From contig JAHEIH010000014.1 of NCBI GenBank assembly GCA_024639455.1, positions 1-40,915 of the forward strand: a stretch of 40,915 nt of DNA. Direction: 5' to 3'. Made by a program: the position numbers and the translations under genes. The notes under the pieces were generated by a model. It ran no database searches. It was not told where the DNA came from and saw nothing but the letters and a program-made list of their open reading frames with translations. The DNA is from Cellvibrionales bacterium. Lineage in GTDB: Bacteria; Pseudomonadota; Gammaproteobacteria; Pseudomonadales; JAHEIH01. Of the stretch, positions 33,708 through 40,915 are shown in pieces (within the stretch, counting starts at the first letter, position 1; each line of letters opens with the position of its first letter).

Positions 33708-36032
33708 TTAGAAGTTGTAACCGACGGTCACACCTACCGTTCTTGGTGGTGCCAAGAAGCCAGCATTAGTCCGCGAACTATTCAGGATGAAGGTACCTTG
33801 GTAGATGAGCTCATCGGTCAAGTTCTTACCCCAAACGTTCACGTGCCACTTGTCATCTGGCGAATAGAACGCAAGGTTAGCATTAACCGTTGTCACCGCC
33901 TCTTGGCTCAGCGCATCTAAATTGAAGGGCGAGAAGTACACCTTACCCTTGTAGTTCAAACCCGCAGTGGCCATACCGTTCCAACCATTTTCCATATTGA
34001 AGCTGTAGTTACCCTTGATGGCATAAGATACCTTGGGTGACTGCACCAACTGATTACCGGCCAATTGCTGCTTGATGTTAACATCTGGAGCAATGATGCC
34101 AAATGCAGGTAATTGCTGTACTACGTCGAAGGGGTCAGCTGAGGTGTAGTCGTTGAATACGGGGTCCATCAACGTTGCGTTAGCATCGATGGTGAATTGG
34201 TCGTTAACCAACCATTTCACGTCCGCTTCGATACCTTTGATTTCTGCCGATGCTGCGTTTTCGTATACCAGCTGGAAGCCAGAAGCGCCCAGTGGCTCTG
34301 AACGGCCTTGTTGCAGGTCAGTGTAATCATAGAAGAAGGCAGCGGTGTTGAACTGAACCGTGCGATCCAAGAACATACCCTTCATACCAAACTCATATGA
34401 ATCGATAATTTCGGGATCCAGCGTTGCTGAACGCTGACCTGACAGGAAGATACCGCTCTTGAAGCCCTGTGAGTAAGAGCCGTAGAACATCACATCGTCG
34501 TTCATTGAATATTCCAAGCGCACGGTAGGCGTGAACTTGCTGAAGCTCTTCTCGTCTTGGTAGTCCAGCACAGGCGCGCCCGGCGCCGTCCAGTAAGAGG
34601 TGTCACCGCCGCGATCTTCTTGGCTGTAACGCCCGCCCAGAGTCAACTGCAGCTGCTCATTCAAGTCGATATCGACGTTGGCGAAAATAGCATTGGCTTT
34701 AGCAAAAGCGGTACCTTGGAACTGAATACAGTTGGTCTCGGGTGCCGCGCTCAGCAGGTCGCCACTATTGTTGTCACCAAAGCCACAGCCTGAAAGACCG
34801 GGCACATTGTTGGCAACTGCATCAGGTAGCAAGCGCAAATCTAAGCGAGTATCTGACGCCATGTCTTCTTTGAAGTAGTAGGCACCCACCAAACCGCGCA
34901 TCGTCTCGGTTTCGAAGTTCAAGCGGAATTCCTGACTGAACTGCTCGGTGTCGAGCATCTCTGACTGGATGTAGAAATCATCCTGGGTCATGTCGAAATC
35001 TTGCTGGGGTAGGCGGTAAAAGCTCTGCTTGTTGGTCACCGAGCTAAAGGTGTATCCGTCGGCCAAGTCGTAGCTAATATCCAGAGTGAAAGAATCCTGG
35101 TCTTTGTAGTTTTGCAAGTTAACATCTGAGTAGATGTCGCGATTGCCAACTGCGCGAGAGAATCCTTGTTTCTGAGGCACCAACATGGCAGCAACTGCCG
35201 GATCTACCGACGCTAATAGTTGGTCCGAGTATGACTGATCGCGGAATTTAGGCACGTAGTTTGTGTCGTCTTCTTTGTGCATCTCTGCTTTAAATAATAC
35301 GCGCAAATCGGTTTCGGCACCCCATAACAACTGCAAACGGGCCGACTGCTGCTTCGCGTCATCGATTTCGGTAATACCGTAGGCATTGTCGGCGTACAAG
35401 TTTTTACCATAACCGCCGCGGTCGATCATGCGGGCAGCGATACGGGCTTGCAGATTGTCACCCAGCGAACCACCGGCGGCCGCTTCCAATTTCATCAGAT
35501 TGTAATTACCCACGGTACCGCGGATGTAACCTTCAGTTTCAGCGGTGGGCTTTTTGGTGATGACGTTAACCGAACCACCAGTGGTGTTACGGCCGTAAAG
35601 CGTACCTTGTGGACCACGCAAAACTTCGATGCGATCAACATCGAATAAACTACCAAATTGCGCTGATGCCTGACTGGTAACAACGCCGTCGAAGTGCATC
35701 GCCACAGAAGGGTCACTGCCGGCGAAGGGGTTGTCGGTACCGATACCGCGGATCATGACTTGCGCGTAACCGAACGACTCACCGATCTGCAGGCTTGGTG
35801 CCATCGACATCAAGTCTTGAATGTTGTTTACGTCAGCGTTGACGATTTCATCTTCGCCCAACGCGGTAATGGCGATACCCACGTCTTGGCTGCTTTCAGA
35901 ACGCTTTTGCGCGGTAACCACAACTTCTTCAAGTTGGGCAGCGTTGGCGGCAGAAGCCCCCAAGCCAATAGCGGCACTAATGGCCAACGCAAGCGTTGAT
36001 CGGGTTGTTAGGGTTTTTGTGATGTGTGACAT
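33708..36032 (-). CDS. TonB-dependent outer-membrane receptor
   Basis: The 774-residue protein has a signal peptide (cleaved near ANAAQ, residue 32), a TonB-box-like LEEVVVTAQKR, a plug domain (about 45-160) with VMIRGIGTDNPFAGSDPSVA, VEVLRGPQGTLYGRNTTGG and VNVITKKP, and a 22-stranded barrel ending LAPPRTVGVTVGYNF with a C-terminal Phe. The plug layout is typical of the many Cellvibrionales/Sphingomonas-type receptors for hydrophobic or aromatic compounds and steroids rather than classic siderophore receptors; the ligand is unknown. AGGAG lies ahead of the ATG. The AraC-type regulator gene is directly upstream and an acyl-CoA dehydrogenase gene downstream. Confidence 0.95.
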   Translation of the reverse strand: MSHITKTLTTRSTLALAISAAIGLGASAANAAQLEEVVVTAQKRSESSQDVGIAITALGEDEIVNADVNNIQDLMSMAPSLQIGESFGYAQVMIRGIGTDNPFAGSDPSVAMHFDGVVTSQASAQFGSLFDVDRIEVLRGPQGTLYGRNTTGGSVNVITKKPTAETEGYIRGTVGNYNLMKLEAAAGGSLGDNLQARIAARMIDRGGYGKNLYADNAYGITEIDDAKQQSARLQLLWGAETDLRVLFKAEMHKEDDTNYVPKFRDQSYSDQLLASVDPAVAAMLVPQKQGFSRAVGNRDIYSDVNLQNYKDQDSFTLDISYDLADGYTFSSVTNKQSFYRLPQQDFDMTQDDFYIQSEMLDTEQFSQEFRLNFETETMRGLVGAYYFKEDMASDTRLDLRLLPDAVANNVPGLSGCGFGDNNSGDLLSAAPETNCIQFQGTAFAKANAIFANVDIDLNEQLQLTLGGRYSQEDRGGDTSYWTAPGAPVLDYQDEKSFSKFTPTVRLEYSMNDDVMFYGSYSQGFKSGIFLSGQRSATLDPEIIDSYEFGMKGMFLDRTVQFNTAAFFYDYTDLQQGRSEPLGASGFQLVYENAASAEIKGIEADVKWLVNDQFTIDANATLMDPVFNDYTSADPFDVVQQLPAFGIIAPDVNIKQQLAGNQLVQSPKVSYAIKGNYSFNMENGWNGMATAGLNYKGKVYFSPFNLDALSQEAVTTVNANLAFYSPDDKWHVNVWGKNLTDELIYQGTFILNSSRTNAGFLAPPRTVGVTVGYNF

Positions 36033-36107
36033 AGTGCTGTCTCCTATTGTAATGAATTACTGTCGTTATATTTATAAGTAAATTTAATTCTAAGTAGGCT
36101 TACAAAG

Positions 36108-36151
36108 AGTCACTATAGCAGTTAGTGACTAAAAAACATGCAAAAAGTGAC
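36108..36151 (-). promoter_or_regulatory. Candidate AraC-type operator and promoter of the TonB receptor
   Basis: AGTCACT (36108-36114) and AGTGACT (36124-36130) form an inverted repeat with a 9-bp spacer. The box GCAGTTAGTGAC (36118-36129) recurs as GCAAAAAGTGAC (36140-36151), 9 of 12 identical and exactly 22 bp apart, about two helical turns, as AraC proteins prefer. On the minus strand a TATAGT box (36112-36117) lies inside with only a weak -35, as at an activator-dependent promoter. The regulator gene is directly upstream. Confidence 0.5.
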
Positions 36152-36163
36152 AGGATGTTTTTT

Positions 36164-37216
36164 TTAGCTGCTTTTTTGTCCGCTTTTTAAACGATATTCA
36201 CGCGGGGAAATACCGGTCCACCCCTTGAAGGCTCGGGCAAACACCGCGGTATCTGAATAGCCAATGCGGCTGGCGATGTCAGCCACTGGTAAAGAATTGG
36301 CTAATAAATAGTGAATCGCCCTGTCTCGACGAACAATATCTTTCAATTCTTGATAACTTACCCCCTCTTCTTTTAACTTCCGAATGAACGTACGTTTCGA
36401 CATATGTAGACGGCGCGCCGCCGCCTCCAGGGTTGGAAGACCATCAGCTAGCGTCTTTTCGAGCAACGTTTTAATTTCGCGCGCCATACTGAATTCCACC
36501 CGTGGCTGCATGAACAGCTCATAAGGACAGTTACTCATAAATAGCCGCAGTGCTATAGCATCTTTCACCACTTCACGTTTTAAAAAGTTGCTCGAAAAGG
36601 ACAAACTCAACAGCTCTGCATCAAATGTAAATCGCGCAGGAAACATATGGTGATATTCTTCGCTGTGTTCGGTAAGCGCGTAGGGGAAATTAATCGATAC
36701 AAGCGGAATATTTTCACCAATCAACCACGCACTAAGCCGGTGCCAGGCCATCAGCGTCATTTCTGCAAATAAACGATGAGGATCTGAATGTGGCTGGTAA
36801 TTATGGAACACGAGCGTTGTTAAACCTTCTTCTTCTCGTAATTCGACCCGGTAGGCCTTAGTGGCAATACCATACATCCCTATAGCGGAATTCAAAGCCG
36901 ACTTTAAATTGGGTTCGTGCACCGCCAGCTTACATGCTATCCAAAATGTGCCACGAGGAATACGCGCGTTAGCGAGGCCCATTGCCTCATCGCCGAGCCT
37001 GTCCCAGATGATCAGCATCATATCAGCCAATTTTTTGATATCTACTCGCTGGGCAATGTCGGCAAATTCACCGCGCGCCAAATTGATCTCGTCCAATAAG
37101 GACTGCGCATCGATACCGTTTTTGATCGCCAATTCGAAGTAACGCACCACGAATAGATTAGAGGTAGTGCTAATGACTGGCGTAGGTGTATTAGGCATGT
37201 GTCGTTTTGCAATCAT
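36164..37216 (-). CDS. AraC-family transcriptional regulator (OruR/ArgR-like N-domain)
   Basis: The 350-residue regulator has an N-terminal ligand domain of the Arabinose_bd type (about 20-210; LFVVRYFELAIKNGIDAQSLL, FAEMTLMAWHRLSAWLIGE, SINFPYALTEHSEEYHHMF) and a C-terminal double helix-turn-helix (about 245-345): AAARRLHMSKRTFIRKLKE and VADIASRIGYSDTAVFARA followed by FKGWTGISPREYR. The length and N-domain are those of OruR-like regulators of catabolic genes. It starts at the ATG at 37216; M7 is an alternative. It lies upstream of the TonB receptor on the same strand, 131 bp away, and probably controls it. Confidence 0.93.
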   Translation of the reverse strand: MIAKRHMPNTPTPVISTTSNLFVVRYFELAIKNGIDAQSLLDEINLARGEFADIAQRVDIKKLADMMLIIWDRLGDEAMGLANARIPRGTFWIACKLAVHEPNLKSALNSAIGMYGIATKAYRVELREEEGLTTLVFHNYQPHSDPHRLFAEMTLMAWHRLSAWLIGENIPLVSINFPYALTEHSEEYHHMFPARFTFDAELLSLSFSSNFLKREVVKDAIALRLFMSNCPYELFMQPRVEFSMAREIKTLLEKTLADGLPTLEAAARRLHMSKRTFIRKLKEEGVSYQELKDIVRRDRAIHYLLANSLPVADIASRIGYSDTAVFARAFKGWTGISPREYRLKSGQKSS

Positions 37217-37385
37217 AAATGTATCTATGAAGTTAACTCAGCTGTTCAAAAGATGCTACATGGATGTGTAAAACATACTTTTCCATACAGTTAGCAAGGT
37301 TGACCTTTTCCCACATGAAAAATAAGGAATTTAATCTAGTCTTGAAACGCTATAAAAATATGTTGCAAGAGCGATATTTCGAGTA

Positions 37386-37556
37386 ATGACGACACACAAA
37401 GATAAAATTTTTGCCATTCGTGTGATGAGAATCTTTGTCACACCCACCTTTGTGCTCGACGCCGCGGGCAAGGTCATTATCTGGAATTTAGCCTGTGAAC
37501 GGCTAACCGGTGTTAAAGCTGAACACGTGATAGGCAGCAATGAGCAATGGCGCTAG
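37386..37556 (+). pseudogene. PAS-domain remnant ended by stop
   Basis: A 56-residue reading frame matches the first third of a PAS domain: TPTFVLDAAGKVIIWNLACE, RLTGVKAEHVIGSNEQWR, then a TAG at 37554. In many sensor proteins this stretch continues past the W with the rest of the PAS fold, which is absent here. No ribosome site is seen. It looks like the 5' scrap of a PAS-containing signalling gene. The 169 bp upstream to the AraC gene are intergenic without further features. Confidence 0.65.
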
Positions 37557-37896
37557 GTTCCTGTGTCCAAATCGCTTCTCGAAACCCTCCAAATAACGAT
37601 CCCTTTGGGTTTTACCCCATGTTCGCTCAGTATAACGACCGATATTTTTTACATCACGAGCGCGAGGAATAACTCGAACCTGAAACGTACAACTGAAGTG
37701 TAAGCGAACTTAACTCAGCAGGTCAGTCTGACAGGTGAAACATTTATCGGATTTGGCTTGAAGCTAACTTTTTCAAGGGATTAACAGATAAGGCCGCTTT
37801 ATTTCGGTCAATTGCGAATAAGTCCCTAGACCTGAGACAATCGAAAAGGCGGGAAGAAGTGGATGATCGTACCTTCCGTACCATGTTGATAAACTC
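37557..37896. other. Non-coding stretch before the AFG1-like gene
   Basis: I see no convincing gene in these 340 bp. Short open frames exist on both strands but none shows a family motif or ribosome site. A small perfect inverted repeat GTCAG-T-CTGAC is present near 37724. No promoter close to consensus stands ahead of the next gene. Confidence 0.5.
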
Positions 37897-39378
37897 ATGT
37901 GGCCCATAATGAAGACAGTAATGAAGAATATGGCAGCACAACAGCGTTTCCTACCGACAGGTCCCGTGACAGCGGCGTATGAACGCAAAGTGGATGCAGG
38001 GGAGGTGCAACGAGATCACGCGCAAGTCGCTCTGGCGGCAAAACTCGACGCCCTGCACGAGTCTCTTACCTCGCTCCCACCAGTACCCGTGCGCACCGAC
38101 AAACTAACCGAGAGCAACTCTACCAGCAGCAGTCCGCTGTTACTGATCAGATCCTTGGCATCCGTTCAGTCTTTTTTTCGAAAGAAGTTCCATTGGTGGT
38201 CTTTTAGTCCACCACCGCGGGGCATGTACATTCATGGACCGGTCGGGGCCGGCAAGAGCTTTCTAATGGATCTCTTTTACGCGTCGGTTAATGTTCCTGA
38301 AGATGATCCTTGCTTTAATCATGACAGCCACAGCCTCAAACACGCAAAAATTACCAAACGCCGCGTCCACTTTCATGCGTTCATGCTAGACGTCCATCAT
38401 CGAATCTTTGTCTACAAGCAGAGTCACCCACGAGATGATGCAATCCCCATCATTGCGCAGCAATTGGCACAGGAAGCGCAAATCCTCTGCTTCGATGAAT
38501 TTCAAGTAACAGACGTTGCCGATGCCATGATTTTGAAACGACTTTTTTTATCATTATTGGATTGGAATGTCGTGGTAGTGGCCACCTCGAATCGCTCTCC
38601 CGATGCCCTGTATGAGGGAGGCATTAACCGATCGCTCTTTTTGCCATTCATAGACATGTTAAAACACACGTTCGACATTATCTCCATGGACGATTCCGCC
38701 AAGGATTATCGACTCGAAACTCGAGCGGATGGTCAATCCTATTTTTGGTCAAACAAGGATGTTCATGGCGAAAATAATAGTGATAGCAACTTGCAGGCGC
38801 AGTTGAAAGAAATATTTGGTGACGCCGCATCCAGAACTGAAGCCGAGGTCGTTCACGTATTCTTCGGTCGCACCATCCAGGTCGCTCGATTGAATGATCG
38901 GTGCGCTTGGTTTGACTTTTCTGAGTTATGCTACCAACCGCTCGGCGCGGCTGATTATATTTCCCTCTGCGACCGATTTCCGGTCCTCATCGTCGACCGC
39001 GTGCCGCAATTAGACGCCAATCACCTCGACGAAGCGCGACGATTCGTGACCCTCATTGACGTGTGTTATGAATCTCGCACCCGATTGGTGCTGGGAGCAA
39101 AAGTCCCGCTCGATGAATTATTTGTCGATTTTGAAGCACAAGTCGAAAGCAGTGATGGAAATGAAGAATTGTTTGTCAGTGAGACAGGAGGGAGCTCGAG
39201 CTCCTTTGCGACGACCATGATCCGCACCAAAGAGGGTGAACAATTGGAATGGTCGGCGACGGGTCGGGTTGGCGTGTCATTGGCAAAATTGTCAGCCACC
39301 AATGATCTCGCCTTTTCCTTTCGACGAGCTGCGTCTCGGTTGGTAGAAATGGGTGGAAAGGAATGGGGACGGCAATAA
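37897..39378 (+). CDS. AFG1/ZapE-family ATPase, eukaryote-like
   Basis: The 493-residue P-loop ATPase belongs to the AFG1 (mitochondrial) / ZapE (bacterial division) family. Visible are TGPVTAAYERKVDAGEV at the N-terminus, Walker A GPVGAGKS (114-121), RRVHFHAFMLDVHHRI, Walker B ILCFDEFQ (196-203), sensor VVVVATSNRSPDALY, GGINRSLFLPFIDMLK, PLGAADYISLCDRF and RRFVTLIDVCYESRTRLVLGA. Bacterial ZapE is about 370 residues. Here there are extra stretches after the N-terminus and an insertion (about 410-470) with SSSSFATTMIRTKEGEQLEW and SATGRVGVSL before FSFRRAASRLVEMGGKEW, which I associate with plant and algal AFG1-like proteins. No Shine-Dalgarno is seen at this ATG or at in-frame ATGs 15, 27 or 36 bp downstream. 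Transfer from a eukaryote or contamination should be considered. Confidence 0.85.
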   Translation: MWPIMKTVMKNMAAQQRFLPTGPVTAAYERKVDAGEVQRDHAQVALAAKLDALHESLTSLPPVPVRTDKLTESNSTSSSPLLLIRSLASVQSFFRKKFHWWSFSPPPRGMYIHGPVGAGKSFLMDLFYASVNVPEDDPCFNHDSHSLKHAKITKRRVHFHAFMLDVHHRIFVYKQSHPRDDAIPIIAQQLAQEAQILCFDEFQVTDVADAMILKRLFLSLLDWNVVVVATSNRSPDALYEGGINRSLFLPFIDMLKHTFDIISMDDSAKDYRLETRADGQSYFWSNKDVHGENNSDSNLQAQLKEIFGDAASRTEAEVVHVFFGRTIQVARLNDRCAWFDFSELCYQPLGAADYISLCDRFPVLIVDRVPQLDANHLDEARRFVTLIDVCYESRTRLVLGAKVPLDELFVDFEAQVESSDGNEELFVSETGGSSSSFATTMIRTKEGEQLEWSATGRVGVSLAKLSATNDLAFSFRRAASRLVEMGGKEWGRQ

Positions 39379-39514
39379 CGAAAGGACCTCCCCTTATGAT
39401 TTGATTGATAAAAATTTTGAGAATTATAGATTGAGAGTATTAGCTCATTGAAGATGGGATAGTATTATCAACAGGGCAATATGAGTGCCATCCCCCGTTT
39501 ATGGTGTAGAGCCT

Positions 39515-39687
39515 AAGGTTGATCCTTTAAAATTGGTCGGGACGGCAGGGTGAAGGCGGGGTTTCAACAAGCAACGCTTGTTGCCGCCTGAACGACCGAG
39601 GGTCTCGCGAGGGCCGGGAATCCGAGGTGCGGACAACGAAAAAGGCCAACCGATAAGGTTGACCTTTTAGAATTGGTCGGGACGGCA
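39515..39687 (-). repeat. Two partial copies of a tRNA-Pro 3' end (att-like direct repeat)
   Basis: Positions 39515-39547 and 39655-39687 match over 33 bp with three differences. On the minus strand each reads TGCCGTCCCGACCA followed by an A/T-rich spacer and a terminator arm. GTCCCGACCA, with G72, A73 and CCA, is the 3' acceptor of tRNA-Pro, and the left copy also keeps the CCTGC of the T stem. Neither is joined to a tRNA body: to the right the sequence turns into unrelated DNA. The 107 bp between hold a 7-bp hairpin (AACAAGC and GCTTGTT near 39566-39582) and no gene. The 136 bp before the left copy, 39379-39514, are also non-coding. Confidence 0.75.
39637..39670 (-). terminator. Terminator of the lost tRNA-Pro gene
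   Basis: On the minus strand AAAGGTCAACC pairs with GGTTGGCCTTT (plus 39641-39651 with 39657-39667, one G-U pair) and ends in a T run. It directly follows the right-hand tRNA-Pro 3' end, as expected for that gene's native terminator. Confidence 0.8.
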
Positions 39688-39915
39688 TCGACTTAAAAGC
39701 CTCCCTATCTATCTGATTTTTAATAATTTAAATAAATTCGAAGTATATAAATACCGCCATTAATACCGCAAAATTTATGTACTGCATAATATATTTTTTA
39801 TAAAGGCGGACTGCTAAGTAACTACTACGCCCATCTTTAGCAGCTGACTTATTATGAACAATAACACGATTTGATGAATTGATAGCTATGGATCAAAAGG
39901 CGGTGATTATTATAA
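39688..39915. other. AT-rich spacer between the tRNA-Pro end and the endonuclease remnant
   Basis: This 228-bp stretch is much richer in A and T than the rest of the window and contains no gene. It has a short repeat, TACCGCCATTAA then TACCGC (near 39750-39768), and an inverted repeat CTGCTAA (39811-39817) with TTAGCAG (39837-39843). Confidence 0.55.
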
Positions 39916-40346
39916 CTACCCACACCTCCCTTCATAAACCCCATTAACATTCCCCTGAATCTTCCCAATCCTTTCCGCCCGGATACACTCCCAGTCACTC
40001 ACCGAATACATCTTGTCCCAGGCTTGCATGAGCTGGCGGGTTTGCTTGGACATTTTGTAGCAGGGGTATGTGGCCTCCATGTAGAGGTAGGCTCTGGCAA
40101 TTTGTCCTCGGGCATTCTCAGGAGGTTCAGCCTTGCGATCTTCAATCTTCATCTGGCAAGTGCCAAAGTCGGCTTCATCACCGGGCAGCATCGTGAAGTT
40201 ATAGTTAGACCGCATGGCATTCACGGCACCGATGGCGGGAAATAGATTGCACATATCAGACTGCATGTATCTGTACTCAGTATTCATCTTAGAGGCATAG
40301 TTTCGGCCTTTGAACGACTTACCCTCAGAACTGACACAGTCGGGAT
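39916..40346 (-). pseudogene. Endonuclease I (EndA/Vvn family), 5' end removed by an IS element
   Basis: The reading frame gives 143 residues of the C-terminal two thirds of a secreted/periplasmic endonuclease I: PDCVSSEGKSFKGRNYASKM, then NTEYRYMQSDMCNLFPAIG, AVNAMRSNYNFTMLPGDEAD, MKIEDRKAEPPENARGQIAR and AYLYMEATYPCYKMSKQ. The signal peptide and the EWEH-type catalytic His segment, about 100 residues, are missing. The break coincides with an IS6-like terminal repeat at 40347. A TTG at 40359, inside the IS end, could start a shortened frame, but without the catalytic His it should be inactive. Confidence 0.85.
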
Positions 40347-40582
40347 GGTTCTGTCGCAAACTGATACGAGATTCATCGAAATGGTATACTGACCCACCAA
40401 CATATCAAGGTTGAGCGGTTCATTATCAATTTCAAAGGCAGGCATTTTCATCAAGATATGATTATGTAGTCGGTGCGCTGGTATCTGGCTTACAGTCTCA
40501 GTTACCGCGATATTGAAGAGATTATGGCTGAACGTGGTTTCACAGTCGACCACAGTACAATCAACCGATGGGTTGTGTACTG
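40347..40582 (+). mobile_element. Decayed IS6-family insertion sequence (left end and N-terminal transposase)
   Basis: GGTTCTGTCGCAAA at 40347-40360 is an IS6-type terminal inverted repeat. About 80 bp inside, the frame FKGRHFHQDMIM (from 40431) leads, after an in-frame TAG at 40467, into SVRWYLAYSLSYRDIEEIMA and ERGFTVDHSTINRWVV, the N-terminal helix-turn-helix region of IS6-family DDE transposases. Homology stops near 40582; the catalytic DDE domain and the right terminal repeat are absent. The element is dead. Its left end lies precisely in the endonuclease gene. Confidence 0.85.
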
Positions 40583-40604
40583 TGGCTGCGCGCCATTCTC
40601 AATG

Positions 40605-40637
40605 CCGTCATCCCAGCAAAAGCTCGGATCTCGACGG
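40605..40637. repeat. REP-like imperfect palindrome
   Basis: CCGTC (40605-40609) and GACGG (40633-40637) enclose CCCAGC, AAAA and GCTCGG, giving an imperfect hairpin with a tetra-A loop. It resembles the dispersed CGTCATCCCAGC-type intergenic repeats of many proteobacteria. Only one copy is in the window. Confidence 0.5.
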
Positions 40638-40697
40638 GATAAGTGCCTAGGCCCTCTAAATGTGACAAGGCATCACCGATAGTTATGAAACGGCTTA

Positions 40698-40915
40698 TCA
40701 GCGTTTTGGCATCAGCAGCGCACATTTCAAGGCCATAATATTTCGACTGCCGGTCAGAAACATTGTCCAGCGGAGCTGTTCAGTTAATACATTTATTTTT
40801 TCTATTACCGCTTCGGCAGAATCTTGTGCCGGTTTTAAAAATGGCTGAGCCAATGCAGTTATGCCTGCACCAAGCCGAAGACACTTAGCGATGTCTAGCC
40901 CGCTGCGTATACCAC
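40698..40915 (-). CDS. fni: Type 2 isopentenyl-diphosphate delta-isomerase, C-terminus (partial)
   Basis: The frame enters from the right edge and ends at the stop at 40698-40700, giving the last 71 residues. GIRSGLDIAKCLRLGAGITA (FMN phosphate-binding loop of the TIM barrel), LAQPFLKPAQDSAEAVIEKI and LRWTMFLTGSRNIMALK are typical of the FMN-dependent type 2 IPP isomerase, which interconverts IPP and DMAPP. The gene was noticed by reading the minus strand at the window edge. The enzyme usually goes with a mevalonate or carotenoid cluster, which would lie to the right. Confidence 0.88.
   Translation of the reverse strand, partial: GIRSGLDIAKCLRLGAGITALAQPFLKPAQDSAEAVIEKINVLTEQLRWTMFLTGSRNIMALKCALLMPKR

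Follow-up and report, generated by a model that had tools for sequence, protein, structure and literature searches.

An AFG1/ZapE-type ATPase gene foreign to Gammaproteobacteria, recently spread between genera and possibly of mitochondrial origin

The open reading frame found at positions 37897-39378 (+) of a 40,915-nucleotide stretch of DNA from a Cellvibrionales bacterium, hereafter referred to as the window, is best explained as a copy of an extra, mobile AFG1/ZapE gene, deriving from the alphaproteobacterial/mitochondrial side of the family, which most likely reached Gammaproteobacteria by one entry from a eukaryotic donor and was then spread between genera; a probability of about 0.6 is assigned to this joint explanation. 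The draft genome in which the window corresponds to contig C29 amounts to 2.88 Mb and is rated 99.5% complete.

The frame is intact and complete and encodes a protein of 493 aa, which is a member of the AFG1/ZapE ATPase family (PF03969), as established by profile searches and by intact Walker motifs. It scores 273 bits against the Pfam AFG1_ATPase model (cut-off 27) and 321.5 bits against the NCBIfam ZapE model NF040713 (cut-off 140), and related genes were found at 75 or more loci. Like bacterial ZapE, known as YhcM in E. coli, it features an AAA+ core with an invariant Walker A motif (GPVGAGKS, 38236-38259, +; residues G117, G119, K120 and S121) and Walker B region (LCFDEF, 38485-38502, +; D200 and E201), the invariance being assessed in the same 37 aligned sequences. 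Unlike bacterial ZapE, the protein contains a basic N-terminal extension (residues 1-21, 37897-37959, +), a Ser-rich linker predicted to be unordered (residues 66-103, 38092-38205, +) and a 65-residue C-terminal insert including EWSATGRVGVSL (39124-39318, +), which none of the ordinary ZapE rows examined contains. Compared with the ordinary ZapE encoded by the same genome (L001; 367 aa from the start set by script, within an open frame of 381 aa), the window protein has 126 aa more. The original prediction, according to which the protein exceeds bacterial ZapE by more than 100 residues and carries a Ser-rich insertion followed by further segments, was accurate, and these segments occur in none of 58 prokaryotic ZapE rows. 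In the alignment, the spacing from LF to F.R..SRL.EM amounts to 65 residues in all 13 family rows and to at most 11 residues (median 8) in the 58 ordinary rows, one of which, L122, is truncated in this region. The motif WSATG is present in 67/67 family members vs 0/58 ordinary ZapE rows; similar segments presumably occur in algal AFG1, in agreement with the earlier suggestion.

Acidic residues are almost absent from the N-terminal extension throughout the family: 59 of 67 members have none, when counted from an anchor four residues inside the core and from the ATG giving about 23 residues. Most relatives display the motif RR[SC][FL][PS]T directly before GPV, which reads RFLPT in the window protein. 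Segments as basic and acid-free as the extension were found in 794 of 33,500 random internal windows, a figure to be read considering that family members are not independent, and the amphipathicity of two N-terminal consensus peptides was equalled by 5.8% and 16.6% of shuffles. The resemblance to a relic mitochondrial presequence is thus only suggestive, the signal being modest.

An AlphaFold model of the protein shows an AAA+-like core at low overall confidence (mean pLDDT 67.4, pTM 0.54), the C-terminal insert being mostly below a pLDDT of 50. TM-scores are low for its best structural matches in PDB, namely IstB, p97, DnaA and DnaC-type AAA+ proteins, and a function in transposition was not deduced from these matches. 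A sequence search of PDB with the window protein gave no match, and neither PHROGs nor PADLOC reported anything for it.

Within the window, the gene stands alone, without operon partners, as had been predicted: the nearest gene on the left, lying outside the unit, codes on the opposite strand for an AraC-family regulator identified by profile search (36164-37216, -), while fragments are found on the right. No promoter-like site was recognised upstream of the gene by scanning the + strand from 37217. The bases preceding the start lack a Shine-Dalgarno core, again as anticipated; by one simple rule, such a core is present in 13/66 relatives vs 16/31 native zapE genes. The integration-site remnants mentioned in the original prediction are real, and consist of two 34-nt direct repeats (39514-39547 and 39654-39687) carrying the 3' end of tRNA-Pro(GGG), i.e. 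two partial copies 140 bp apart (39514-39687). A 15-nt stretch of the repeat has one other genomic copy, on contig C16, where it terminates an intact gene for tRNA-Pro(GGG). Near the contig end (39916-40682), an endonuclease I gene and an IS6-family transposase are present in fragmentary form. No Rfam match was obtained within 36000-40915. The DNA in common with the closest relatives forms a block spanning 37806-39385 (+), about 90-91% identical, beyond which flanks are dissimilar; for some relatives, similarity to the window starts already at about 37791. A region matching the left neighbourhood of the window was sought in 18 related genomes and was found in none.

The family was collected by scanning one genome per species for 84,980 species and by keeping the best 80 of 547 candidates, corresponding to 79 distinct loci. 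Among these, 75 loci (L004-L078) encode the same protein, with 74-90% amino acid identity, and all their hosts are titled as Gammaproteobacteria or genera thereof, except L038, an 'uncultured proteobacterium'. The remaining four (L079-L082) are alphaproteobacterial ZapE genes with 40-43% identity, so that identity drops from 74% to 43% with no intermediate among the 79 loci listed. Best matches to proteobacterial ZapE, which had been named in advance as evidence against a transfer from eukaryotes, were literally obtained, but the genes so matched are themselves members of the unusual family of the window gene. NCBI ranks, available for 63 of 67 family members, cover eight families, four orders and 20 named genera.

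Distribution is patchy. The gene was found in 2/369 genomes of a class sample, in 4/398 genomes of an overlapping phylum sample, and in 11/120 Marinobacter genomes, always in single copy and in one case partial. In the genus of the window organism, one of two genomes carries it, the other genome being 75% complete. The gene is additional to zapE: a full-length ordinary zapE was found in 30/30 carrier genomes tested (for 30 of the 75 listed loci), and that of the window genome, whose presence the original prediction had proposed to check, is located on contig C8. A further AFG1/ZapE paralogue occurs in carriers G756, G757, G759, G892, G903, G904 and G909 with scores of about 244-281 bits and reading frames 367-477 aa long; judged by frame length, it is neither an ordinary zapE nor a member of the mobile AFG1-type family.

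Evidence for movement between hosts comes from near-identical copies. The coding DNA is 96.3-99.6% identical among 12 hosts belonging to several NCBI orders, which include Nitrincola, Alishewanella, Rheinheimera, Saccharospirillum, Pseudomonas, Arsukibacterium and Marinospirillum, whereas the native zapE genes of 10 of these hosts and of the window genome are merely 54.8-76.2% identical. The window copy shares 92.2-93.1% of its coding DNA with those of the 12 hosts. On a quick gene tree, where many forks are weak, the host family label changes 15 times vs a minimum of 7. The gene has therefore been transferred very recently across bacterial orders. Such a spread, together with the occurrence at 75 or more loci, replaces the single rare transfer into one bacterium originally envisaged with a mobile single-gene family, found in at least 20 named genera; of the proposed eukaryote-to-bacterium transfer, the foreign nature of the gene is retained and the single event in one genome is abandoned. 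No relative of the family was detected in the viral contigs scanned. Matches were found in 5 phage records and 52 plasmid records, all below 60% identity, which are named ZapE, AFG1 family or ATPase wherever a name is shown (20 of the 52 plasmid records being listed). A description of the mobile AFG1-type family is apparently absent from the papers retrieved, as judged from titles and the openings of abstracts.

The position of the family was evaluated by a tree of 71 rows, from which the gammaproteobacterial L087 was left out, having no usable ORF. The family is monophyletic (100/100), with a stem length of 1.33 and a shallow crown. Of the 28 gammaproteobacterial ZapE rows, 27 are cut off from it by a 100/100 branch, and the family falls on the side (100/100) containing 30 rows from other classes, including four named alphaproteobacteria. 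The gene is therefore not an orthologue of gammaproteobacterial ZapE, lying outside that clade, and phylogeny supports its being foreign to Gammaproteobacteria. When eukaryotic sequences are not included, the row nearest to the family is the other-class ZapE L139, with a weak support of 82/86.

Eukaryotic ZapE/AFG1 was itself placed with Alphaproteobacteria (PMC7314023), and the family lies on the same side as published for the mitochondrial proteins, i.e. AFG1, AFG1L (LACE1) and yeast Afg1; the section of that paper dealing with ZapE/AFG1 placement makes no mention of the mobile AFG1-type family. A further possible likeness to mitochondrial AFG1 is the presequence-like N terminus; family members differ in being specified by a single open frame of a bacterial genome. 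Direct comparisons were made by using approximate eukaryotic sequences. The approximate yeast Afg1 is 32.3% identical to the window protein vs 41.6% to alphaproteobacterial ZapE L079, and carries an insert in the corresponding C-terminal position, which is taken as a lead only. In a tree including this sequence, the family joins yeast on long branches (SH-aLRT 96); by adding an approximate vertebrate AFG1L and omitting nine odd rows, the family no longer joins the eukaryotic sequences, and holding the two approximate AFG1 sequences with the family gives a p-AU of 0.467, the hypotheses being indistinguishable. Because placement changed with the rows included, these trees were not used as proof. 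The nearly acid-free N-terminal extension and the 65-residue C-terminal insert suggest a mitochondrial past. A eukaryotic (mitochondrial) origin would be the best reading, although unproved. An even chance is given to its specific form, in which a nuclear gene for mitochondrial AFG1 entered one gammaproteobacterium in a single event, kept a relic targeting peptide and eukaryotic inserts, and became a selected mobile unit in at least 20 genera.

Alternatively, the gene may come from an alphaproteobacterium that evolved fast or has not been sampled, or from Pseudomonadota of some other class than Gammaproteobacteria; the additional segments would then have arisen in the donor lineage or along the long stem before the gene was spread in Gammaproteobacteria. 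This origin, possible but held to be the less probable one, agrees with the alphaproteobacterial side on which the family falls, beside a single other-class ZapE, with a core identity of about 38-49% to other-class ZapE genes, and with bacterium-to-bacterium transfer being far commoner. In addition, sequences of the Nitrosomonas, Methylomicrobium and Methylosarcina type are reported to fall among alphaproteobacterial ZapE (PMC7314023). Against such a donor, the identity gap contains no intermediate among the 79 loci listed; the C-terminal insert is found in no ordinary ZapE row examined, and had no match in 385 genomes of an alphaproteobacterial-side class, in a search run without positive control.

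Selection was analysed on 67 sequences, corresponding to the window and 66 of the 75 listed loci, after excluding the broken, partial or gapped L017, L049, L059, L069-L071 and L076-L078. The median dN/dS is 0.28 (2126 pairs with dS >0.05); values of 0.31 and 0.34 were obtained for 16 independent close pairs and for singleton changes in 13 close relatives, respectively. The family gene is thus under purifying selection, with a dN/dS of about 0.3, and the protein therefore appears to have been maintained in recent time. These data bear on the idea that the gene is neutral cargo, moved passively at repeat-rich hotspots and having no effect in bacteria. Such an idea would be in line with the patchy occurrence described above (2/369 and 11/120), with the lack of a recognised promoter and with the rarity of Shine-Dalgarno cores, but recent changes include 62 non-synonymous and 54 synonymous ones, vs a neutral expectation of 3.39:1, and an early in-frame stop was detected by our own scan in just 3 of the 75 listed loci (L017, L049 and L059), a few more being truncated or cut by contig ends. 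Neutral cargo is accordingly regarded as improbable.

Two other explanations are refuted. An ordinary gammaproteobacterial zapE, duplicated and diverged, would account for the NCBIfam ZapE cut-off being passed, but is contradicted by the 100/100 branch and by carriers keeping their ordinary zapE, which leaves it a very small probability. Smaller still is that of eukaryotic DNA contaminating the assembly, as the location beside fragmented sequence, close to one end of the 41-kb contig, might have suggested, because the gene recurs at 75 or more further loci with 74-90% amino acid identity, with differing flanks and in many cases deep in long contigs (up to 2.8 Mb) of both isolates and MAGs, and the GC content of the gene is 0.501 vs a mean of 0.504 for the 16 other ORFs of the window, codon use being likewise unremarkable.

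The sequences surrounding the family members were compared by single-linkage, joining loci which share at least 300 bp beyond 350 bp from the gene. About 61 contexts were defined for the 75 listed loci: 21 of the loci fall into seven clusters and the other 54 stand singly. Beyond 350 bp, few loci have flanks in common. One clean example of an occupied and empty site was found in Marinobacter, where genome G748 contains a 2017-bp insert and its relatives G809 and G785 are empty at the same site. The insert shows a possible 5-bp target duplication, with one mismatch. Its sole long ORF is the family gene, the next longest encoding 92 aa, and no other ORF of the size of a recombinase was seen within it. 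In a third relative, G820, the sequence differs from the insert point of G748 onwards. At L222:1400-1600, a different sequence follows at the site of the G748 insert, and a similar GTGCAGACTCTCGGTT stretch is present inside, indicating an insertion hotspot. A second search for empty sites, in Alteromonas, yielded no clean site.

In six Marinobacter loci and in the MAG locus L050 the shared DNA starts at GGTCGCRAAGCGRACATT; in 6 of the 7, this sequence recurs 3' of the gene, either unchanged or as a variant. GGTCGCRAAGCGRACATT may represent the end of a cassette-like unit not previously described. It was counted 1-10 times in each of 7 carriers (6 Marinobacter and 1 MAG; L143-L157, G748-G754) and in 0/6 other genomes tested, and tends to sit at junctions of unrelated sequences. 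In five close relatives, the left limit is marked by a GTTAAAC core. This core, and the fact that the ORF is found by itself in many unrelated settings, recall single-gene mobile units such as integron gene cassettes; the left junctions of L009 and L014 are attC-like by eye only, as they were not listed by the attC scan. Unlike integron cassettes, the right ends of the shared DNA vary between groups, Marinobacter limits being formed by another repeat, and the attC scan, run under relaxed rules (5 hits in 464,019 bases of the shuffled control), detected few sites near the loci; nothing comparable to the left junctions was seen on the right of the gene. The right flanks of L011 (from about 4914), L015, L008 and L016 run into a MSHQLTFADSEF... 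stretch, which by eye is presumably the start of an IS5-like transposase. By sequence comparison, a single mechanism fitting all groups was not found. After its entry, the gene would have been spread between genera as a unit of about 1.6-2 kb, in which no recombinase gene was seen; repeat-rich hotspots may be where recombinases or transposases of the host move it in trans.

As for function, E. coli ZapE is reported to bind FtsZ and phospholipids, ATP hydrolysis appearing dispensable for its role in division (PMC8503651), and mitochondrial ZapE/AFG1 to interact with Oxa1 (PMC7314023). By analogy with ZapE and AFG1, the likeliest role of the product is that of an accessory membrane-associated AAA+ ATPase acting beside ZapE. 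The protein would hydrolyse ATP at the inner membrane, to which it may be anchored by the basic N-terminal helix, and would handle membrane-protein or division substrates, much as ZapE acts on FtsZ and phospholipids and AFG1 on insertases of the Oxa1/YidC type.

Transfers of eukaryotic genes into bacteria are usually regarded as isolated cases. The family described here is an AFG1-type ATPase of the mitochondrial/alphaproteobacterial side, which is under selection and has crossed bacterial orders while its own DNA changed by a few percent. If the source is eukaryotic, the family would provide a natural experiment on AFG1 working outside mitochondria, beside the ZapE of the host. Whatever the source, it points to a mode of transport for a single gene of about 1.6-2 kb, unmatched to any known element.
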